NCBI RefSeq assembly: GCF_032854445.1
Contig: NC_088307.1
Span: 29,170,484 to 29,234,483, forward strand
DNA length: 64,000 nucleotides
Origin: Liolophura sinensis
Lineage: Eukaryota; Mollusca; Polyplacophora; Chitonida; Chitonidae
Direction of reading: 5' to 3'
Part shown: positions 16,726 through 43,100 of the stretch, one piece after another
Layout of the letters: every line of letters begins with the position of its first letter
How positions within the stretch are numbered: the stretch's first letter is position 1
Notes under the pieces: model-generated
What the model was told of the DNA's origin: nothing
What the model saw: only the letters and a program-made list of their open reading frames with translations
Databases searched by the model: none
Translations under genes and position numbers: made by a program

Positions 16726-19700
16726 TCAGTGCTCTAACTGTCCTCCCAGGGGTAGAAGTGAATGTGCTCTAACTGTTCTCCCAGGGGTAGGAGTGAATGT
16801 GCTTTAACTGTTCTCCCAGGGGTAGGAGTGAATGTGCTCTAACTGTTCTCCCAGGGGTAGGAGTGAATGTACTCTAACTGTTCTCCCAGGGGTAGGAGTG
16901 AATGTGCTCTAACTGTCCTCCCAGGGGTAGGAGTGAATGTGCTCTAACTGTTCTCCCAGGGGTAGGAGTGAATGTGCTCTAACTGTTCTCCCAGGGGTAG
17001 GAGTGAATGTGCTCTAACTGTCCTCCCAGGGGTAGGAGTGAATGTGCTCTAACTGTCCTCCAGGGGTAGGAGTGAATGTGCTCTAACTGTCCTCCCAGGG
17101 GTAGGAGTGAATGTGCTCTAACTGTTCTCCCAAGGGTAGGAGTGAATGTGCTCTAACTGTTCTCCCAGGGGTAGGAGTGAATGTGCTCTAACTCTTCTCC
17201 CAGGGGTAGGAGTGAATGTGCTCTAACTGTTCTCCCAGGGGTAGGAGTGAATGTGCTCTAACTGTTCTCCCAGGGGTAGGAGTAAATGTGCTCTAACTGT
17301 CCTCCCAGGGGTAGGAGTGAATGTGCTCTAACTGTTCTGCCAGGGGTAGGAGTGAATGTGCTCTAACTGTTTTCCCAGGGGTAGGAGTGAATGTGCTCTA
17401 ACTGTTCTCCCAGGGGTAGGAGTGAATGTGCTCTAACTGTTCTCCCAGGGGTAGGAGTGAATGTGCTCTCTGTCCTCCCAGGGGTAGGAGTGAATGTGCT
17501 CTAACTGTCCTCCCAGGGGTAGGAGTGAATGTGCTCTAACTGTTCTCCCAGGGGTAGGAGTGAATGTGCTCTAACTGTTCTCCCAGGGGTAGGAGTGAAT
17601 GTGCTCTAACTGTCCTCCCAGGGGTAGGAGTGAATGTGCTCTAACTGTCCTCCCAGGGGTAGGAGTGAATGTGCTCTAACTGTTCTTCCAGGGGTAGGAG
17701 TGAATGTGCTCTAACTGTCCTCCCAGGGGTAGGAGTGAATGTGCTCTAACTGTTCTCCCAGGGGTAGGAGTGAATGTGCTCTAACTGTCCTCCCAGGGGT
17801 AGGAGTGAATGTGCTCTAACTGTTCTCCCAGGGGTAGGAGTGAATGTGCTCTAACTGTTCTCCCAGGGGTAGGAGTGAATGTGCTCTAACTGTTCTCCCA
17901 GGGGTAGGAGTGAATGTGCTCTAACTTTTCTAACAGGGGTAGGAGTGAATGTGCTCTAACTGTTCTCCCAGGGGTAGGAGTGAATGTGCTCTAACTGTTC
18001 TCCCAGGGGTAGGAGTGAACGTGCTCTAACTGTTCTCCCAGGGGTAGGAGTGAATGTGCTCTAACTGTTCTTCCAGGGGTAGGAGTGAATGTGCTCTAAC
18101 TGTTCTCCCAGGGGTAGGAGTGAATGTGCTCTAACTGTCCTCCCAGGGGTAGGAGTGAATGTGCTCTAACTGTCCTCCAAAGAGTAGGAGTGAATGTGCT
18201 CTAACTGTTCTCCCTGGGGTAGGGGTGAATGTGCTCTAACTGTTCTCCCAAGAATAGGAGTGAATGTGCTCTAACTGTTCTCCCAAGAGTAGGAGTGAAT
18301 GTGCTCTAAATGTCCCCTCATGGGCCGGAGTGAAAGTGATCTAAGTGTTGCTTCATTGTCCGGAGTGAATGTGCTGTAAGTGTTCTCTCATGGTCTGAAG
18401 TGAATGTGCTGTAAGTGTTCTCTCATGGTCCGGAGTGAATGTGCTCTAACTGTCCTCCCAGGGGTAGGAGTGAATGTGCTCTAACTGTCCTCCCAGGGGT
18501 AGGAGTGAATGTGCTCTAACTGTTCTCCCAAGGGTAGGAGTGAATGTGCTCTAACTGTTCTCCCAGGGGTAGGAGTGAATGTGCTCTAACTCTTCTCCCA
18601 GGGGTAGGAGTGAATGTGCTCTAACTGTTCTCCCAGGGGTAGGAGTGAATGTGCTCTAACTGTTCTCCCAGGGGTAGGAGTGAATGTGCTCTAACTGTCC
18701 TCCCAGGGGTAGGAGTGAATGTGCTCTAACTGTTCTCCCAGGGGTAGGAGTGAATGTGCTCTAACTGTTTTCCCAGGGGTAGGAGTGAATGTGCTCTAAC
18801 TGTTCTCCCAGGGGTAGGAGTGAATGTGCTCTAACTGTTCTCCCAGGGGTAGGAGTGAATGTGCTCTCTGTCCTCCCAGGGGTAGGAGTGAATGTGCTCT
18901 AACTGTCCTCCCAGGGGTAGGAGTGAATGTGTTCTAACTGTTCTGCCAGGGGTAGGAGTGAATGTGCTCTAACTGCTCTCCCAGGGGTAGGAGTGAATGT
19001 GCTCTAACTGTCCTCCCAGGGGTAGGAGTGAATGTGCTCTAACTGTTCTCCCAGGGGTAGGAGTGAATGTGCTCTAACTGTTCTTCCAGGGGTAGGAGTG
19101 AATGTGCTCTAACTGTCCTCCCAGGGGTAGGAGTGAATGTGCTCTAACTGTCCTCCCTGGGGTAGGGGTGAATGTGCTCTAACTGTTCTCCCAAGAATAG
19201 GAGTGAATGTGCTCTAACTGTTCTCCCAGGGGTAGGAGTGAACGTGCTCTAACTGTTCTCCCAGGGGTAGGAGTGAATGTGCTCTAACTGTTCTTCCAGG
19301 GGTAGGAGTGAATGTGCTCTAACTGTTCTCCCAGGGGTAGGAGTGAATGTGCTCTAACTGTCCTCCCAGGGGTAGGAGTGAATGTGCTCTAACTGTCCTC
19401 CCAGGGGTAGGAGTGAATGTGCTCTAACTGTTCTCCCTGGGGTAGGGGTGAATGTGCTCTAACTGTTCTCCCAAGAATAGGAGTGAATGTGCTCTAACTG
19501 TTCTCCCAAGAGTAGGAGTGAATGTGCTCTAAATGTCCCCTCATGGGCCGGAGTGAAAGTGATCTAAGTGTTGCTTCATTGTCCGGAGTGAATGTGCTGT
19601 AAGTGTTCTCTCATGGTCTGAAGTGAATGTGCTGTAAGTGTTCTCTCATGGTCCGGAGTGAATGTGCTGTAAGTGTTCTCTCTTGGTCCAGAGTGAATGT

Positions 19701-22700
19701 GCTTTAAGTGTTCCTTCATGGGCCGGAGGGAATATGCTCTAGGTGTTTCCCATGGGCCGGAGTGAATGTGCTGTAAGTGTTCTCTCTTGGTCCGGAGTGA
19801 ATGTGCTCTAAGTGTTCTCTCTTGGTCCGGAGTGAATGTGCTCTAAGTGTTCCTTCATGGGCCGCGTGAATATGCTGGAAGTGTTTTCCCATGGGTCGGA
19901 GTGAATATGCTCTAAGTGTTTTCCCATGGGTCGGAGTGAATGTGCTCTGTGTATTACCCCATGCATCGGATTAAGTGTGTTCTCACTAATCCCTACAAAG
20001 TCGGAGTGAGTGTAATCTAAATATTCCCTCATGGGTCGGAATGGGTGTGCTGTAATTATTCCCCCATGTGTGGGATTGACTTTGTTCTGACTATTCACAC
20101 TTGGGTGGGAATGAGCAGGGTCTAATGATTCCCCCAAGGGTCGGAGTGAGTGTACTATAAGTATTCCCTCATAAATCGGAGTGAATGTCCTCTAACTGTT
20201 CTCCCAGGGGTAGGAGTGAATGTGCTCTAACTTTTCTCCCAGGGGTAGGAGTGAATGTGCTCTAACTGTTCTCCCAGGGGTAGGAGTGAATGTGCTCTAA
20301 CTGTTCTCCCAGGGGTAGGAGTGAATGTGCTCTAACTGTTCTCCCAGGGGTAGGAGTGAATGTGCTCTAACTGTTCTCCCAGGGGTAGGAGTGAATGTGC
20401 TCTAACTGTCCTCCCAGGGGTAGGAGTGAATGTGCTCTAACTGTTTTCCCAGGGGTAGGAGTGAATGTGCTCTAACTGTCCTCCCAGGGGTAGGAGTGAA
20501 TGTGCTCTAACTGTTCTCCCAGGGGTAGGAGTGAATGTGCTCTAACTGTCCTCCCAGGGGTAGGAGTGAATGTGCTCTAACTGTTCTCCCAGGGGTAGAA
20601 GTGAATGTGCTCTAACTGTCCTCCCAGGGGTAGGAGTGAATGTGCTCTAACTGTTCTCCCAGGGGTAGGAGTGAATGTGCTCTAACTGTTCTCCCAGGGG
20701 TAGGAGAGAATGTGCTCTAACTGTTCTCCCAGGGGTAGGAGTGAATGTGCTCTTACTGTCCTCCCAGGGGTAGGAGTGAATGTGCCCTAACTGTTCTCCC
20801 AGGGGTAGGAGTGAATGTGCTCTAACTGTTCTCCCAGGGGTAGGAGTGAATGTGCTCTAATTGTTCTCCCAGGGGTAGGAGTGAATGTGCTCTAACTGTT
20901 CTCCCAGTTGTAGGAGTGAATGTGCTCTAACTGTCCTCCCAGGGTAGGAGTGAATGTGCTCTAACTGTTCTCCCAGGGGTAGGAGTGAATGTGCTCTAAC
21001 TGTTCTCCCAGGGGTAGGAGTGAATGTGCTCTAACTGTCCTCCCAGGGGTAGGAGTGAATGTGCTCTAACTGTTCTCCCAGGGGTAGGAGTGAATGTCCT
21101 CTAACTGTTCTCCCAGGGGTAGGAGTGAATGTGCTCTAACTGTTCTCCCAGGGGTAAGAGTGAATGTGCTCTAAATGTTCTCCCAAGAGTAGGAGTGAAT
21201 GTGCTCTAACTGTTCTCCCAAGAGTAGGAGTGAATGTGCTCTAAATGTCCCCTCATGGGCCGGAGTGAAAGTGATCTAAGTGTTGCTTCATTGTCCGGAG
21301 TGAATGTGCTCTAAGTGTTCTCTCATGGTTCGAAGTGAATGTGCTGTAAGTGTTCTCTCTTGGTCCGGAGTGAATGTGCTCTAAGTGTTCTCTCTTGGCC
21401 CGGAGTGAATGTGCTCTAAGTGTTCCTTCATGGGCCGGAGTGAATATGCTCTAAGTGTTTCCCATGGGCCGGAGTGAATGTGCTCTAAGTGTTCTCTCTT
21501 GGTCCGGAGTGAATGTGCTCTATGTGTTCCTTTATGGGCCGGAGTGAATATGCTCTAAGTGTTTTCCCATGGGTCGGAGTGAATATGCTCTAAGTGTTTT
21601 CCCATGGATCGGAGTGAATGTGCTCTGTGTATTCCCCAATGGATCGGATTAAGTGTGTTCTCACTAATCCCTACAAAGTCGGAGTGATTGTGATCTAAAT
21701 ATTCCCTCATGGGTCGGAATGAGTGTGCTGTAAGTATTCCCCCATGTGTGGTATTGACTTTGTTCTGACTATTCACACTTGGGTGGGAATGAGCAGGGTC
21801 TAATGATTCCCCCAGTGAGTGTACTATAAGTATTCCCTCATAAATCGGAGTGAATATGCTTTAAGTGTCCCCCATGGGTCAAAATGAGTGTGCTGTAAGT
21901 ATTCCAATAAGGATTGGCGTGAGTGTGCTCTTAGTATTCCCAATAGTTCTGAGCGAGTATGCTCTAAATATTTCTCTTGGGTCTGAGTGAGTGTGCTCTA
22001 AGTATTTCTCCATGTGTCGGAGTCAGTGTGCTCTAAGTATCTCCCAATAGGTTGGAATGAGTGTGTTCTAAGTATTCCTAATGGGTCGAATTCAGCGTGT
22101 TCTTTCAAAGTTTTCCCCCATTTGTAGAAGTGAGTGTGCTCTAAGTATTTCCCTAGTGGTCTATGTATTCCTTCACGGGTCAGAGTGACTATGCTCTAAG
22201 TATTCCTTCACGGTCATAGTGAATGTGCTTTAAGTATTCCCTCACGGGTCAGAGTGACTATGCTCTGTGTATTCCCTCACGGGTCAGAGTGACTATGCTC
22301 TAAGTATTCCTTCACGGGTCAGAGTGAATATGTTCTAAGTATTCCCTCACGGGTCAGAGTGTCTATGCTCTGTGTATTCCCTCATGGGTCAGAGTGACTA
22401 TGCTCTATGTATTCCTTCACGGGTCAGAGTGAATATGTTCTAAGTATTCCCTCATGGGTCAAAGTGACTATGCTCTTTGTATTCCTTCACGGGTCAGAGT
22501 GACTATGCTCTATGTATTCCCTCACGGGTCAGAGTGTCTATGCTCTATGTATTCCTTCACGGGTCAGAGTGAATGTGCTTTAAGTATTCCCTCACGGGTC
22601 AGAGTGACTATGCTCTATGTATTCCTTCACGGGTCAGAGTGACTATGCTCTATTTATTCCTTCACGGTCAGAGTCACTGTGCTCTAATTATTTCCATGTG

Positions 22701-31100: not shown

Positions 31101-34100
31101 CTGGAGTGGGAACATAATACTGGAATGGGAGATGATACTGGCGGGAAATATGATCCTGGAGTGGGAACATAATACTGGAATGGGACATGATACTGGCGGG
31201 GAATATGATCCTGGAGTGGGAACATAATACTGGAGTGGGAGATCATACTGGCTGGGAATATGATCCTGGAGTGGGAACATAATACTGGAATGGGAGATGA
31301 TATTGGCGGGGAATATGATCCTGGAGTAGGAACATAATACTGGAATGGGAGATCATACTGGCGGGGAATATGATCCTGGAGTGGGAACATAATACTGGAA
31401 TGGGAGATGATATTGGCGGGGAATATGATCCTGGAGTGGGAACATAATACTGGAATGGGAGATCATACTGGCGGGGAATATGATCCTGAAGTGGGAACAT
31501 AATACTGGAATGGGAGATCATACTGGCTGGGAATATGATCCTGAAGTGAAGTATGATACTGGAGATAATTATCATACTGGAATAAAATATGGTAATGGAG
31601 TGGAACATGGTACTGGATGGTATATTATAATGGAGTGGTATATGATACTGGAATTATGAGTGTAAAAAGACCGAAGCTTCACACTTTGTGGCGACGCTCA
31701 GACACCTTTTTGGCGACGCTCTGACAGCTTTATGGCGACGTGTAGACAGTTTTATGGCGACCCACAGCCAACTTTATGGCGACGCACAGCCAGCTTTATG
31801 GCGACGCTCAGACAGCTTTATGATGTCAAGAAGATACTTTATGTCTACACCCAGACTATTTTGGCTTTATGTCGATATTCGGACTATTTTGCCACAAAGG
31901 AAACATCGTCATATGACTGATTTAAACATCAAAAACCATACTAAACGTCTTCTTTGCCAACACACAGGCAGATGGCACTCTATCATGCATCATACCAGAA
32001 AAAAAAATCTTGTCATATTTACCCGATGGTCAGTTCTCGCTCCTCGATTTTCTCAAGGTAGCGGTCCTGCATCGTCTCTTCCCATTTCAGGTCCTCTTTG
32101 GTTTTGTACGTCTCCATTCCTTCGTCAATGGCCTGACTGTGGATGTCTGCCAAGAATGAGGGCAACAAATGAGCGCCATGTAAAACAAAAGAACGTTTAC
32201 ATTCTATCACCAGAATAACTACGCTGCACAGATTCATATTCAACCACCACAAAAACTAAACGTCACAGATTCACATCCTACCACCAGAATAACTACGCTT
32301 CACAGATTCACATTCTACCATCAGAATAACTACGCGTCACAGATTCACATCCTACCACCAGAATAACTACGCGTCACAGATTCACATCCTACCACCAGAA
32401 TAACTACGCGTCACAGATTCACATTCTACCACCACAATAACTAGACGTACAGATTCACATCCTACCACCAGAATAACTACGCGTCACAGATTCACATTCT
32501 ACCACCAGAATAACTGCGCGTCACAGATTCACATCCTACCACCAGAATAACTACGCGTCACAGATTCACATTCTACCACCACAATAACTAGACGTACAGA
32601 TTCACATCCTACCACCAGAATAACTACGCGTCACAGATTCACATTCTACCACCAGAATAACTGCGCGTCACAGATTCACATCCTACCACCAGAATAACTA
32701 CGCGTCACAGATTCACATTCTACCACCACAATAACTAGACGTACAGATTCACATCGTACCACCAGAATAACTGCGCGTCACAGATTCACATTCTACCACC
32801 ACAAAAACTAAACATCACAGATTCACATCCTACCACCAGAATAACTACGCGTCACAGATTCACATTCTACAACCACAATAACTAAACGTCACAGATTCAC
32901 ATTCTACCACCAGAGTAACTACGCGTCACAGGTTCACATTCTACCATCAGAATAACTAAACGTCATAGATTCACATTCTACCACCAGAATAACTACGCGT
33001 CACAGATTCACATTCTACCATCAGAATAACTACGCGTCACAGATTCACATTCTACCACCAGAATAACTACGCGTCACAGATTCACATTCTACCACCAGAA
33101 TAACTGCGCGTCACAGATTCACATTCTACCACCAGAATAACTACGCGTCACAGATTCACATTCTACCATCAGAATAACTATGCTGCACAGATTCACATTC
33201 TACCACCAGAATAACTACGCGTCACAGATTCACATTCTACCACCAGAGTAACTACGCGTCACAGATTCACATTCTACCACCAGAATAACTACGCGTCACA
33301 GATTCACATTCTACCATCAGAATAACTACGGACCACAGGTTCATATTCTACCAAAAGGATAACAGCGTGCAAGGTTCCTCTCGGAGTAACGGGATTTACC
33401 TTGGGCCAGTTCTTCAAACGTGCTTCCTTTACACCTGAGACAGCGCCTGACAAGTGTGAAGATGTTACCAATGAGAGACAAGGGCGGGGGGAAGTAAGAG
33501 CGAACAGCGAACTCCATGGCCAGGCGGTAACTCTCATAGTTCAGGTAACGGACGGCGCTGTTCTCCACCTTTCTGTACGTCGAGCTGCAATCACATTTTA
33601 TTTACTTATTTATATGATTGCTGTTTAGGTCTGTACTCAAAATCGTTTCACTTTTACCAGGGCTGTCAAGGTTTCTAGGTAGAAAAAGCCGGAATGCACG
33701 GAGTCAGTCATGGACATTTACTGGGTGTCTGGGAAATCCTGTTGATTATGTGTATTAAACCACTATTTTCCTAAAGCTAAAAGACCTATAGGCCTACTGC
33801 AACATGCGTGAATGAGGACTACAAATCCAGGCTCCGAACCTTTTGAGTAAATGTTTCAGTAGGTTTATGCGTGAGCGGAAACGTTTACCAAGATAAATGT
33901 TAACCTTTACATTGCAAAAGTAAACGTAAAGTTTCATGTGAAGTTCATCTTTACTTAATTGTATGCAGCCTAGCTGCACCATTTTCTGCAAAGGTTTACT
34001 GAGAACATTTAACAGGGCAGCAACGTCCCGTTATTATTCTAACCTAAAGTCTCTAAAATGGATAAAGCGCGTCGTATTATGTTTGAAATTTTAGAATCAT

Positions 34101-37100
34101 TTTAACACCAAAAATGATACAGGTACGAGTCTGATACGTACTGAAAGGTAATAATTTGAACTATTCATGGAAAATAAGGAAAATTTGAATTGATTAGCGA
34201 GTATGTATTTTCTTCATAAATCTCCAGTATAGCATCTTATTATGGCAATATTAAGGCTAAATATTATGGCTAAATTGCGGCGAATTGCATTTAAAGAGTA
34301 GATGAACTTAGGATCGTTATGCACACTTACCTGAATATGGCAATTAGTAGATTGAGTAGCAGAACGTTTGTGATAAACATGTAAATAGCTGTCATGGCCG
34401 GAGCTAGCCTCCGACCCAAAGGGCTAGGACACATCTTCTGATACTCGTCCATTTCCGTCCGATTGCTGGCACATTCCTGTGATCCTGCAATTCGATAAGA
34501 TAACGGACTGATTGTTAGACTGACTGACTCATCGAATGACTGATGTGCTCAAGAGTTTATCAAAAGTATATAACGACGGTAAAGTTTATGGGGCAAAGGA
34601 AACCAGAGCACCCGAAATAAAGCAGGTAACCTTAATAAGTTAAAGCTACATGTGACACTTGGAAAACCTGGAACGACTGATTTACTGATGACACAAGAGT
34701 TACGAAGATAAAGTTCCGTCAAAAAAGCTCACCTATGCAAACGAGTTGCCATGGTTACATTATAGTGACATGGCGCAGTTTTATGTTAACGGTTCCAATA
34801 AAAACGCAGCTGAGATTTTCTTGCTCTACGTGACCTTGCTGTGGACTACGTACTGGTTTTGACGGACCATATATTACCCACGTATGTCTTTCCGACATCA
34901 TTAAAACCTGCTGACTTTTCTAAAACCAGGCAACTATCTTCCGTTAAAATTATATACCTTTTTAAAAGATTATGATGTTAATTTTATTCAATGAGTAAAA
35001 TGGTCCCTGGGAAATTCAGTGGATATTGTTTTACTAGTTGATGGCCGGAACTGTGATTCGGACATTGTTTTGCTGGTCGACGGCCGGAACTGTGATTCGG
35101 ACATTGTTTTGCTGGTCGACGGCCGGAACTGTGATTCGGACATTGTTTTACTGGTTGACGGCATGAACTATGGTTTTCACACTATTTTACTGGTTGACGG
35201 TCTGAACTGTGATATGGACATTGTTTTACCGGTTAACAGCCTGGACTGTGACGGGGCAATTTGTTTTAAAGGTTGACGACCAGAGCTGTGATTTGAATAT
35301 TGTTTTACAGACTGACAGCCAGAACATTGATTTTAATAGTGTTTCACAGGCTGACGGTCAGAACTGTGATTTGGATATTGTTTTACCGGTTGAAGACCAA
35401 AACAATGATTTGAACAGTGTTTTACATGTTGACGGTCAGAATTGTGATTTGGATATTGTTTTAAAAGTTGACGGTCAGAAGTGTGATTTGGACACATCAC
35501 TTATCATGTGCAAGGCTCACGAGTTAGGCATCAAGGTAAGGTGAAGACGGGTTGATGGATTCATTTACTGATTGGTGTTTAACGCCGTGTTCAATTTTTC
35601 ACTTACACGACTGCCTTAAGGTTTATGAGTGTAAGAATGCGGAGAGCCCGGTGTAAGTCATCACACTTTTGCCAGGTAGGTGCTGACAAACCTCCTTACC
35701 TAAAGCTGCAGTAGAAAGCACCGAGAGCTGGATTCGAGCATGCGAACTCATTGGTCAGGGGCCTGATAGTTGCAGAGAGCCAGCGCTTTAACTGACGCAT
35801 ACAGCGTTTGAATTAGTTAAGAATTGGGGGTGTGCAAAAGTGTATCACAGAGGACGGACACACATGTATCTGATGTATTTCATCGTTCCAGGAAAGGAGA
35901 GCCATAATGTGGCCATTCTGACAGGCCTGATATGATAAGTCACCGCCGTCACCACATGCCATATTTTCACAGCATTGTAAACGCCATTTTAGGAGCCACG
36001 TACACAAGTGTCTGCACTTGTACCTTGGGCAACATTCTACTGCCATTTCAGCAGCTATTTACTAATCGCTTTTTAGCTCATATGATGCTTTAGATTAGGG
36101 TGATCCGAGTTCAAAAACAGTTGTAACCCACGAAGTAAACGCTTTATCTGTTTAAATGTTACCGCGAGGCATGGGTGTATCGTCGTGGAAGCGCGGATGT
36201 GTTATGGGAGGGGAGAAATTACATAAATGTGTTAGTTCTAAATCCTCTAACCATTGCAGACTAACCTTCGATTTCGTCAGTAAGAGTTCTCCGAACAGTT
36301 GCCAGACCGGTCGGCGGAGAAGATTCTTGGCGCCATGCTCGGCAATAGTGGCGTTAGGGAACAAGGTCACCTCGATGGCGATTCCGTAACCAAACATGAT
36401 CGTTATCATGATGATCATGAAAATTACCATGTTAAACATCTGTAAGAAACAGCAGGAATGTGACCTTCAGACTGGGTAAAAATTATAAACATCTGTAAGA
36501 GACTGCAGGAATGTGACCTTCAGACTGGCTGAAAATTACCAGGTAAAACATCTGTAAGAGACTGCAGGAATGTGACCTTCAGACTGGCTGAAAATTATAA
36601 ACACCTGTAAGATACAGCAGGAATGTGACCTTCAGACTGGATGAAAATTACCACGTTAAACCTGTGTAAGAGTCAGCAGGAATGTGACCTTCAGACTGGG
36701 TGAAAATTCCCATGTTAAACATGTGTAAGAAACAGCAGGAATGTGACCTTCAGACTGGCTGAAAATTACCACGTTAAACACCTGTAAGATACAGCAAGAA
36801 TGTGGCCTTCAGACTGGGCGAAAATTATAAACATCTGTAAGAGACTGCAGGAATGTGACCTTCAGACTGGCTGAAAATTACCATGTTTAACATGTGTAAG
36901 AAACAGCAGGAATGTGACCTTCAGACTGGGTGAAAATTACCACGTTAAACCTGTGTAAGAAACAGCGGGAATGTGACCTTCAGACTGGGTGAAAATTGCC
37001 ACGTTAAACACCTGTAAGATACAGCAGGAATGTGACCTTCAGACTGGGTGAAAATTATAAACATCTGTAAGAGACTGCAGGAATGTGACCTTCAGACTGG

Positions 37101-40100
37101 TGAAAATTACCATGTTAAACATGTGTAAGAAACAGCAGGAATGTGACCTTCAGACTGGCTGAAAATTACCATGTTAAACATGTGTAAGAAACAGCAGGAA
37201 TGTGACCTTCAGACTGGGTGAAAATTACCACGTTAAACATGTGTAAGAGACTGCAGGAATGTGACCTTCAGACTGGGTGAAAATTACCATGTTAAACATG
37301 TGTAAGAGACAGCAGGAATGTGACCTTCAGACTGGCTGAAAATTACCACGTTAAACATCTGTAAGAAACAGCAGGAATGTGGCCTTTAGACAGGGTGAAA
37401 ATTACTATGTTAAACACCTGTAAGATACAGCAGGAATGTGGCCTTTAGACTGGTTGACAAATTCCAGGCTAAACATCTGCATGAGAAAGTACACGTAGGA
37501 CAGAGGAGTCCACAAAGGTATTGTACATTCAAATTGAGGAAGCCTCTGTGAAAACGGTTACTTGTTGGCAATGTGCATATTTCTGTTGGAAGTCATTGTA
37601 TTTACATAAATTTATACGTTTTCGCTTTAAACTCTAGTATAAAACCAATGGCTGGTTTATTATCACGCTTCAAGTTGTAAAAGAACTGAACAATGTTTGT
37701 CTGTAGGTTTTAGTAACTAGGCCTATATAAATCTGAACAAATCTTTGTGAGAAGACATTTATTTATCTATTTCCTGTTAGCACGGGTCAAATTTATCAAA
37801 GCATCCAAAATTTCATCAGGAGCGTATTATTTTTATGTACTACGTGTTATAAAAGGTGTAGGATACAACAATCCTTCCCCCCCCCCCCGCCCCACACTCC
37901 CCGTCAAAATTGCCGTATATATGCAAAGTAAGAGTGACATCTTTTTAGTTTACGTTGGTTTTTTTACCAACGTAGTGTTGGTTAAACTCTGATGGACACA
38001 AAACTTACCATTTCTCTCATCATCACAACCTTTATCCCAATGGCCGAGAAGCCAGGAAGAAGCGCAGAGAGTTCAGGTAGAAGAAGGAGAGAGCGATGCT
38101 CAGGATTAAGGTGCCAATCTCATAGTGGATCACGTGGTGTGGGTTGCGAAGAATGAAGCCCACGACAAATAATAAATACGGCACAAAGATTAACGCTGTC
38201 ATCAGAGATACCCCACGGAACCGGATTACCTGGTGAAAACATAAAAGGTATAATAAATACGCCACACAGATTAAAACTGTCATCAGGCATACCCCAAGGA
38301 ACCGGCTTACCGGTGAAAACATGAAGAGTATAATAAATACGCCCACACAGATTAACCCTGTCATCATGGATACCCCACGGAACCGGCTTACCGGTGAAAA
38401 CATGAAGAGTATAATAAATACGCCACACAGATTAACGCTGTCATCAGGGACACCCCACGGAACTGGCTTACCGGTGAAAACATGAAGAGGATAATAAATA
38501 CGCCACACAGATTAACCCTGTCATCATGGATACCCCACGGAACTGGCTTACCGGTGAAAACATGAAGAGTATAATAAATACGCCACACAAATTAACGCTG
38601 TCATCAGGGACACCCCACGGAACTGGCTTACCGGTGAAAACATGAAGAGTATAATAAATACGGCACACAGATTAACCCTGTCATCTTGGACACCCCACGG
38701 AACTGGCTTACCGGTGAAAACATGAAGAGTATAATAAATACGCCACACAGATTAACCCTGTCATCAGGGATACCCCACGGAACTGGCTTACCGGTGAAAA
38801 CATGAAGAGTATAATAAATACGCCACACAGATTAACCCTGTCATCATGGATACCCCACGGAACTGGCTTACCGGTGAAAACATGAAGAGTATAATAAATA
38901 CGCCACACAGATTAACCCTGTCATCATGGATACCCCACGGAACTGGCTTACCGGTGAAAACATGAAGAGTATAATAAATACTGCACACAAATTAACGCTG
39001 TCATTAGGGATACCCCACGGAACTGGCTTACCGGTGAAAACATGAAGAGTATAATAAATACGGCACACAGATTAACCCTGTCATCATGGATACCCCACGG
39101 AACTGGCTTACCGGTGAAAACATGAAGAGTATAATAAATACGGCACAAAAATTAACGCTGTCATCAGGGATACCCCACGGAACTGGCTTACCGGTGAAAA
39201 CATGAAGAGTATAATAATTACGGCACAAATTAACGCTGTTATCAGGGATACACCACAGAACTGGCTTACAGGTGAAAACATGAAGAGTATAATAAATACG
39301 CACAAAAACTAACACTGTCATCAGGGATATCTCAGGGAACGGGATTACCTGGTGAAAACATGAGAATAAATACGTATACGGCACAAGATCAACTCTGTTA
39401 TCAGGGATACCTCACGGAACTGGAATACCTGGTTAAAAACCTGAGGTGTATAATAAATACCCCACACAGATTAACGCTGTCATCAGGGATATCTCACCGA
39501 ACCGGATTATCTGGTGAAAAGAGTAAACAATCATAACAACATGACATTGCACGTCAATGTGTGGAACTGTTTTAAGGGCAGGTCAAGGTGGTGGGATTTT
39601 TTTGTACGTTGCAACAAATGATATTTCACAGTTGTGCGGAAGTGGTAACCAATTTATTTATTTGATTGGTGTTTTACACCGTATTCAAGACTTGAACTCA
39701 CATCGACCGCATTGGTGAGAGACTCATGGGTCATTACGCTGTGCTAGCGCGCTAACCAATTGAGCCACGGAGGCCCCGTAACCAATTTAGAGAGGAAGAA
39801 ACCAGATAAATGCTTTCACGTCTATGACTCAGGCGCCTTCCACCGATGCGGTCGCTGTGAGTTCAAGTCCAGTTCACGCTGGCGTCCTCTCCGGCCGTAC
39901 GTGAAAATGTCTATCAGCAACCTACGGATGGTCGTGGGTTTCCACGAGGCTCTAGCCGGTTTCCTCCCATCAGAAAGCCGACCGCCGTGATGTAAGTAAA
40001 ATATTCTTGACTACGGCGTAAAATTCTAAATAAATAAATAAATTTGTGTGTTGTCACCTGTGTGAGTTCCTCAATGAACGCGGTGACAACCCAGGTAGCC

Positions 40101-43100
40101 ACGATCCAGCCCAGGGCGGGGAAAGCTTCGTCCCGACCCAGTAACAGGTTTATCGTGTACATGGTGAGGAAGGCGAGGTAGGACAGCTGGCAACATTAAA
40201 ACAAGAAGACGACGATATTACAGGCGTACATAGCAATATAGTACATGGTCAGTCATTTAGAAGGGAGGTAACTCCTCTAACCAAAGGAAGGCAATATTTA
40301 CACCCCCTCTAGCTGTCAAATGTTGGGCATGTGTTTTGGTTATAAGTATTCATTTTTTTCAGGACGTCTCCACTTAAATGTTTCTATTTATAATAAGCCT
40401 ATCTATTTCTTTAACCATTTTCTATTTCCAACAGAATATCACTGTGACGAGGGCGACTTTGCTAATTTACAGAAGAAAAGCAAATAGGTCTTAACGTCGT
40501 CGATCTTCCAATTATTCGTTTGTTTTCAAGATTTCTGTTTCTTTCATCTCTTTTTATTTCATCAACATGATACTGTCAGATTACAGACGAGAAGTAATTT
40601 CTTCGTGACACTGTTTCTAAATCAAACCGTTGTACTCAAGTATGAGAGTGTTAAGAGAACGTACCATGAACCGGAAGTACTTGATGACAGGGGCTGCTGC
40701 TGAACTGCGGCACATTTCCCGTAGCCCTAGGAAACAATAATCAGACCCATTACAGGAAATCGGGGATTGTCATTGCCGGCGTGTGTGGCAAAAAATACCC
40801 CACTCGACCGCCGTCGACCACTGCACCTCGAATTAACAAAAATTAACAACACAACATTTATAATAATAATGTAATAAAAGAAAACATGAGTATTACAAGC
40901 AATAAATAAGTTTACTGAAGCATCACGTCTGTCTCGGTATCTGGTGTCAAGTGAGCATTCTGTTAGTCGAACCGTTCTCAGTATCTGGTGTCAAGGGAGC
41001 ATTCTATTGGCCGAACCGTTCTCAGTATCTAATGTCAATTGAGCATTCTGTTAGTCGAACCGTTCTCAGTATCTGGTGTCAAGTGAGCGTCCTGTTAGTC
41101 GAACCGTTCTCAGTATCTGGTGTCAAGTGAGCATTCTGTTGGCCGAACCGTTCTCAGCACCTGTGTCAAGTGAGCATTTCGTTGACCGAATCGTTCTCAG
41201 TATCTGGTGTCAAGTGAGTATTCTGTTGACCGAATCGTTCTCAGTATCTGGTGCCAAGTGAGCATTCTGTTGACCGAACCGTTCTCAGTATCTGGTGTCA
41301 AGTGAGCATTCTGTTGGCCGAATCGTTCTCAGTATCTGGTGTCAAGTGATCATTCTGCTGACCGAATCGTTCTATCGTTCTCAGTATATGGTGTTAAGTC
41401 GGCATTCCGGTGGCCGAATGGTTCAATAGATTTAACTAATAATGATATAAGTGAATTATGACTGGATTGTAGCTCTACCACCTGAGCTTGTGTAATTCTG
41501 CTGGAGAGAAGAAAGTGCCCGAACATGAGACATCCCGTGTAGCCAGCCGTTGTTCACTAACGTGATGTGTCACCTTGTCACCTATAAGACTGTCCTTTTG
41601 ACGCCATGTAATGCCAGACAACATGAGACTGTGTAAGACTAACACAATACTAGTGTCTTACTTCACTCCTTACCTTTGGCTCTTTTGTACGTGAGACAGA
41701 ATCTCATCTGAAGCAGGGAAAAACAGAAGACCTACAAACAAAAGAATAGAACAGGCTGAAACAAACAGGTATGAGTTATAAAGAAAGTTTTGAAAACAAG
41801 ATACAACTCGAATTCTCGAATTTCCCTGTGACTCACAATACTGTATAAATCAGACAGGTCACACAAAGAATTATGTAGGAAAAGAAACACATGTGCTTTA
41901 ATATTAAGAAAAGACAAGCTACATGTATCTCTTTCCCCGGTGTTCCTTAACCTTAGCCCTCAAGTCTTTTCGTCCTCCCCACACTTTACGTTATCCACCC
42001 TTTATTGGTGTGACCATTGGTTTTACCTTCCACCAACAGCTGCACGTGACCCTCTCCCGCATTTAAACTTCTTTCTAGTTGTTCTCCCTAATCCAAAGTC
42101 CTCTATTTCTACAGCTGTCTCTTCCATCGACTATTAAGGTTAGCCCTAGGTCTCTCATGTCTGCTTCCTAAATTCCACCGGCTGCTGTTGTCGACAACCT
42201 GGTGAAGAACTTTGATGTGGTTCAGGCCCAATGCCAACACCTGGACTTCAACACCTTTCACCGATTACAGAAACTATACAGCTCTTCCAGCCACAACTCA
42301 TCCAACTATACTATCCTACCCAGTATCTCCCCACCTCCCCTCTATCATGTACCTTCCATCGGCTTTGCAGTTCGCCACGTCTCCCATCCACACCTCGATT
42401 ACCTCTCACCCTCCCAACTTATCACTTCTGTGACGTATATTCCTCCGGATCTGTAGTTTGTCCACATCCTCACCTCGTTGACCCTTTCCAACCTGTCTCA
42501 CAAATTCCAGTTCTGTGACGCAGCTTCACACCGGCTTTGCAGTTCGCCATGTCCCCCATCTACACCTCAATGGACCCCATGCTCCCTCCCTCCCTTCTAT
42601 GAGGTACCTTCCACGGTATCGCCAGGTCACCCATCCACACCTTGTTAACCCTTTCCTACCCATCATACATGTACCATTTCTGTGACGTAACTTCCACCGG
42701 CTTTATAGTTCGCCCATCTGCACTTCGTTGACCCTCCTCTCCCATTACCACTTTCTATCACGTACCTTCCACCGGCTATTGCAGTTTGCGAGGTCCCCCA
42801 TCCACACCTCGTTAATAACCGGCTCGAAGGACTCGTGTGACATGACAGCCTGGCTGTCGATGGCCATGCGAAAAGAGGATACCTTGCCCCAAGCCTGACT
42901 CTTCTTACTGAGCACGGCCGGTGTGCTCCACGCTTGTCTCTTGGTACTGGTCCCAGTAGCTGCACAGCCAGGGTCTCAAACATGCTGCAAACACGGAAAT
43001 TTGAACATTTGTGCAGGACTGGTTGTTTTATACAGAAAAATCGATTACGTTTTCTTCAGATATTTCAGAAGTACACTAGAATAACGTTCAGATCATCACT

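Follow-up and report, generated by a model that had tools for sequence, protein, structure and literature searches.

A mirage-like minisatellite at an exon boundary of a chiton TRPM3-like gene, and the probable founder origin of its acceptor-less core

How does the edge of an exon come to be copied many times over within its own gene, and how do most of the copies come to lack the dinucleotide that makes them acceptors? These questions are raised by a TRPM3-like channel gene of the chiton Liolophura japonica, in which 16 copies of a unit of about 80 bp stand upstream of a 221-nt exon. Within the window, the whole 64-kb stretch of DNA that was analysed, the array occupies 38169..39520 on the minus strand, with the genuine exon edge as its last unit, and TRF describes it with a period of 80, 16.9 copies and a score of 2051. 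Cut at a TTTTCACC-like anchor and read 5' to 3' on the minus strand, each copy comprises some 20 nt of intron, then the acceptor, then some 60 nt of the exon, here called exon b, and unit 17 is the genuine site. On its near side the array passes into exon b itself, and the sequence becomes unique past GTATTTATTAT. The roughly 16-fold copying described by the sequence-only reading is thus borne out by TRF and the unit table, and with 16 aligned copies chance can be ruled out. A search of the assembly DNA, in which the best candidates were scored, revealed no second haplotype of the array, the 16 matches listed being the locus and its own repeats. In our view, the array is probably a mirage, and the loss of the acceptor AG a founder event carried by array turnover.

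The gene was recognised from five exons between 40189 and about 33402 which, joined as one peptide with an X placed where the frame breaks, align with TRPM3 chains along 280 residues (E 1.6e-32). Exon a, from the S1-S2 region (40058..40189, minus strand, 5' edge approximate), ends in FIEELTQ/GTGACA; alone it gives a weak TRPM7 match (E 0.65), and it forms part of the joined TRPM3 match. Exon b, the genuine S3-S4 exon (38009..38229, minus strand), begins at 38229, has its donor directly after 38009 and was delimited by its frames and by the joined alignment, where together with its neighbours it covers the S2-S3 to S4 stretch of TRPM3. Searched alone against the PDB, it gave no TRPM match, and its identity therefore rests on its place between its neighbours and on the joined match. 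A protein search of the genome for paralogues of exon b at E<=0.01 returned two matches, the exon and a site within its array. At the start of the exon (38190-38229), some 11 residues that TRPM3 has in its S2-S3 stretch are absent, and the exon edge may have shifted when the array formed. Exon c, covering S5 and what follows (36266..36439, minus strand), is supported by its frames and a TRPM3 match (E 5.5e-4 over the first 45 residues of a query from 36415 down), and its acceptor is copied as well. Scanned singly against Pfam, exons a, b and c matched neither a TRPM nor an Ion_trans family; exon d alone reached Ion_trans at E 0.0019, under the cut-off, and the joined peptide at E 5.7e-5 and 22.9 bits, under the cut-off of 25. 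None of the 28 PF18139 matches lies inside the 64-kb window.

Tandem repeats are abundant around these exons. TRF lists 54 tandem-repeat rows over the whole window, including one at 16729-21626 with 140 copies of a 35-bp unit. Two arrays were considered as boundary arrays and set aside: a 37-bp array at 32199-33353, which by eye lies between donor and acceptor, and a 39-bp array at 35020-35494, which is mid-intron and away from any edge. The intron between exon a and the 80-bp array also holds a repeat with a tRNA-like part (39660-40045), whose tail we take to resemble mollusc SINEs.

The genuine acceptor AG lies at 38230..38231 on the minus strand as TGTTTTCACCAG/GTAATC, placed by splice scores and exon frames; its unit, with first exon base 38229, reads CACCAGGTAAT. 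The three distal units, 1 to 3 (39279..39520, minus strand), retain the AG and read CACCAGATAAT, AACCAGGTATT and CACCAGGTAAT. Units 4 to 16 (38240..39278, minus strand) form a homogenised core without the acceptor A, unit 4 reading CACCTGTAAGC and units 5 to 16 CACCGGTAAGC. Tabulating CACC(A)GGTAA for all units gives an AG kept in 3/16 copies and the A deleted in 13/16, twelve of the latter reading CACCGGTAAG and unit 4 reading CACCTGTAAG. The sequence-only reading had held that core copies lack one A, destroying the acceptor AG, and the unit table agrees; its further statement that the outermost copies keep the AG is true of the distal units 1 to 3, but not of units 15 and 16 beside the genuine exon. 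A deletion common to 13 units and lying outside a homopolymer would not plausibly be a read error.

The 13 copies without AG are contiguous and have two linked changes in common, the A deletion and a T>G at exon position +5, which argues for a single founder spread by homogenisation. We read the core as the product of one loss followed by spread, rather than of repeated loss. A further change, G>A at exon position +8, is common to units 4 to 14 and is also present in unit 2. Units 5 to 16 differ on average by 4.4 positions among themselves, by 10.5 from the genuine copy and by 16.5 from units 1 to 3. Between the core consensus and the genuine unit, 10 of 81 positions differ; with that many differences, the AG pair would be struck at least once by chance with a probability of about 0.23. 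On a UPGMA tree that includes the genuine copy, two changes are counted at the AG site, a count for which conversion of the genuine copy's flanks could be another source. The contiguous block, the linked changes and the homogenised core all favour the 'lucky founder' that had been offered as one explanation of the loss.

Arrays of this kind are known from lancelets, where minisatellites lie at the exon boundaries of Adh, globin, TnC and PGBD5 genes, carry AG or GT in many but not all copies, and are reported to leave splicing undisturbed (PMC3087553, PMC3902484). The name mirage stems from work on lancelet Adh in 2002, as cited in PMC3087553. As described for lancelets, the unit of the chiton arrays spans an exon edge, here taking in roughly 20 nt of intron and 60 nt of exon b, and both acceptor and donor edges are affected. 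The splice dinucleotide is likewise kept in many but not all chiton copies (3/16 in the 80-bp array, 102/174 over all acceptor arrays described below and 121/138 over the donor arrays). The concerted core and diverged cluster boundaries of lancelet mirages also recur in the 80-bp array (4.4 differences within the core vs 16.5 and 10.5 outside it). Copy numbers of 6 and 3 units are described for the two haplotypes of lancelet BflGb6, and the chiton arrays have 6 to 68 copies besides the genuine one. Unlike lancelet mirages, the 80-bp array has its acceptor-A deletion fixed through 13 contiguous units, and its host is a mollusc.

A course of events that would account for the array begins with the tandem duplication of a stretch spanning the intron-exon boundary, giving a minisatellite that would have expanded by unequal exchange or slippage. 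Copies accumulate on the intron side in such a process, which leaves an unbroken exon only after the final copy, and the last acceptor is most likely still the one used in splicing. The early copies, units 1 to 3, would have retained their acceptor; one internal copy would have lost the A of its AG together with the nearby T>G and become the founder of units 4 to 16 during homogenisation, and the G>A would later have spread across units 4 to 14. The loss of AG would then most likely be neutral, or at most mildly favoured.

Did the loss silence decoy splice sites, as had been suggested? By splice matrices that are not derived from chitons, as for every acceptor and donor score given here, the genuine acceptor scores 7.9 and the decoys of units 1 to 3, named by their first 'exon' base, score 8.1 (39510), 3.7 (39428) and 7.2 (39348). 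The core acceptors do look disabled; the decoys at 39510 and 39348, however, score about as high as the genuine site. Units 4 to 14, which are 11 of the 13 copies without AG, carry a further CAG about 10 nt downstream, GTAAGCCAG/TTC, and this new CCAG was rejected as a replacement acceptor, since it scores -0.4 or -2.5 against 7.9 for the genuine site (non-chiton matrices). The core also contains 13 donor-like GTAAGC sites, one in each of units 4 to 16 (G of GT from 38310 to 39269, minus strand); by the non-chiton matrices twelve of them score 8.9, above the real upstream donor of exon a at 6.9, and that of unit 4 scores 5.6. The claim that loss of the A creates a donor holds in part: GTAA predates the loss, and the genuine edge CAG/GTAAT is already donor-like at 7.6, whereas the core form CCG/GTAAGC reaches 8.9 (non-chiton matrices). 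With two distal decoys of genuine-like strength and 12 strong core donors, silencing is incomplete. A recursive, or ratchet, splice site is an acceptor directly followed by a donor and is used in the stepwise removal of introns; the genuine site and unit 3 would have the sequence form of one in CACCAG/GTAAT, whereas the core copies are without the acceptor half.

The 80-bp array is one of several at exon edges of this genome. Within the window, a 59-bp array delimited by TRF (36418..37486, minus strand) copies the acceptor of exon c 18 times besides the genuine one. At least 13 boundary arrays, eight at acceptors and five at donors, with the 80-bp array among them, were found in four channel-gene regions; the further acceptor arrays are L041_54, L041_40, L041_41, L047_42, L048_55 and L053_86, and the donor arrays L041_39, L045_29, L052_67, L052_26 and L054_28. 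With copies at more than 42% edits to the template excluded, and copy counts that shift slightly with the template, the AG is kept in 3/16 (80-bp), 10/18 (59-bp), 37/68, 14/15, 15/23, 14/21, 3/7 and 6/6 copies (102/174 pooled), and the GT in 24/26, 7/12, 60/64, 25/29 and 5/7 (121/138). AG is the majority state in six of the eight acceptor arrays, and the copy adjoining the real exon keeps it in five of the eight (5/7 when the 80-bp array is set apart).

These regions were hand-picked: eight TRPM regions from PF18139 matches, then the loci of the 30 best of 110 listed Ion_trans matches, and finally 12 pieces taken by hand for exon matches or as continuations of an array-rich gene. Being chosen and not sampled, they can give no genome-wide frequency. 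Seven of the 50 loci L007-L056 hold boundary arrays, at least 11 in number, and these seven come from just three gene regions. The edges of exons were assessed visually, and part of the TRF-listed arrays was viewed at both edges, so that all counts are minimum ones; L045 5194-8875, L043 750-1035 and L053 2987-3424 were left out of them as unclear.

The survey also brought individual loci to attention. A single TRPM-like gene region (G000:C1:6918800-6947000; pieces L041 560-9090, L045 2233-2581 and L052 769-6172) has seven boundary arrays, including a 67-bp donor array with 64 copies and a 54-bp acceptor array in which 68 copies accompany the genuine edge. The L045 5194-8875 array, close upstream of a TRPM-like exon, has about 85 copies of a 43-bp unit whose consensus looks like an acceptor. 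At L047 4274-5132 and L041 8122-9090, copies with and without the AG take turns in a higher-order pattern, and in the former roughly every third copy lacks it. In another TRPM-like gene, the 19-bp array at L043 750-1035 consists of pyrimidine tract only, and the exon behind it resembles the exon behind the 41-bp array of L041.

The foremost alternative to a founder event is that selection silenced the decoys, and we regard it as possible though unlikely. Usable upstream acceptors would be harmful, and arrays would therefore grow from copies without AG; since transcription reaches acceptor decoys ahead of the real site, these would suffer more than donor decoys. Consistent with this, the AG is lost from 72/174 copies over the eight acceptor arrays and the GT from 17/138 over the five donor arrays, and the changes involved differ between arrays (A deletion in the 80-bp array, AG>AT in five, AG>AC in the 59-bp array, and a few losses as GG, AA or TG). 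Moreover, spurious AGs near 3' splice sites are reported to be selected against in Drosophila (PMC10946897).

The retention of the splice dinucleotide was further ranked among the dinucleotides of its unit. By copies, which within one array are not independent, AG had a mean rank of 0.33 over the eight acceptor arrays (P=0.053), or 0.36 without the 80-bp array (P=0.11), and GT a mean rank of 0.59 over the five donor arrays (P=0.75). In six of the eight acceptor arrays AG was lost in more copies than most other dinucleotides (ranks 0.09-0.42), and a one-sided Mann-Whitney test of acceptor against donor ranks gave P=0.085. With distinct unit types in place of copies, the acceptor P was 0.065; parsimony events on UPGMA trees gave no signal, with mean ranks of 0.42 for acceptors (P=0.21) and 0.54 for donors (P=0.61). 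Other AGs in the acceptor units were kept in 264/326 cells, against 102/174 at the splice site, and other GTs in the donor units in 396/508 cells, counts subject to the same non-independence of copies. Overall, AG is not lost significantly more than other dinucleotides in the eight acceptor arrays. The AG ranks (P=0.053) and the contrast with other AGs do lean towards selection and against a neutral founder, and the direction fits a purging of decoy acceptors; their strength is suggestive only and falls short of establishing it. The persistence of two full-strength decoys and the creation of 12 strong donors (non-chiton matrices) in the 80-bp array, two acceptor arrays that are nearly all AG (14/15 and 6/6), and a TRPM-like gene that may not be intact speak against it as well. 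Selection, the other explanation offered by the sequence-only reading, is thus not shown, given that the seven other acceptor arrays keep the AG in 99/158 copies and the pooled tests are not significant.

A broader version of this idea seems doubtful to us. Copied exon edges would be a common mode of intron growth in chitons and would at the same time preserve a record of selection, with acceptor decoys upstream, being transcribed first, put out of use more frequently than donor decoys downstream; the 80-bp array would be the extreme case, in which one disabled copy took over.

It is very improbable that the array is making new exons, with distal acceptors and core GTAAGC donors bounding cassette exons much as in the new-intron proposal for lancelets. 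Pairing its decoy acceptors with its core donors gives 39 stretches, 35 of them interrupted by a stop and four open; only 39348 to 39111 (237 nt; 7.2 and 8.9 by the non-chiton matrices) is both open and a multiple of three, and the frames continued from the acceptors at 39510, 39428 and 39348 run into a stop after 25, 27 and 106 codons. A path from mirage to new intron is drawn in PMC3087553, the same source that, with PMC3902484, reports undisturbed splicing. Genes of human segmental duplications have variable internal tandem repeats, some of which are reported to lie where exon meets intron and to be linked to novel introns (PMC2812944); the boundary minisatellite is a likeness to the 80-bp array, but those repeats average four 30-bp units and belong to recent primate paralogues. 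Introns are also reported to be gained by tandem genomic duplication of AGGT-containing sequence (PMC4974935; Rogers model in PMC3087553), which likewise sets acceptor-like and donor-like AG/GT halves in a row; in the 80-bp array, however, an existing intron boundary is copied and no new intron is in evidence.

A decaying gene copy, in which the splice sites of the array would drift without consequence, is no better a candidate. In this assembly the frame of exon b is broken by an in-frame stop at codon 66; exon c ends in phase 0, whereas exon d would have to be entered in phase 1 to give its TRPM-like frame (34331-36439, minus strand); and the residues missing from exon b and the sub-threshold Ion_trans score point the same way. 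Against decay stands the long match of the joined exons to TRPM3; small indel errors in a 14x assembly (PMC11068029) would presumably look alike, and the AG loss, common to the whole block, may predate any decay. With two frame offsets, the assembled gene is perhaps not intact; a decayed gene, a haplotype lesion or an assembly error may lie behind them. The argument from selection requires a working gene, so the offsets weigh on that as well.

No mollusc report of such boundary arrays was recognised in the open-licence literature by titles and abstracts. The 80-bp array is real but of a kind known from lancelets, and 13 arrays in four chiton channel-gene regions suggest that mirages are not peculiar to lancelets. 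Since up to 68 decoy splice sites stand beside a real one, the choice made by the spliceosome and the purging of decoys become directly testable, the ground for such tests being a species with RNA data.
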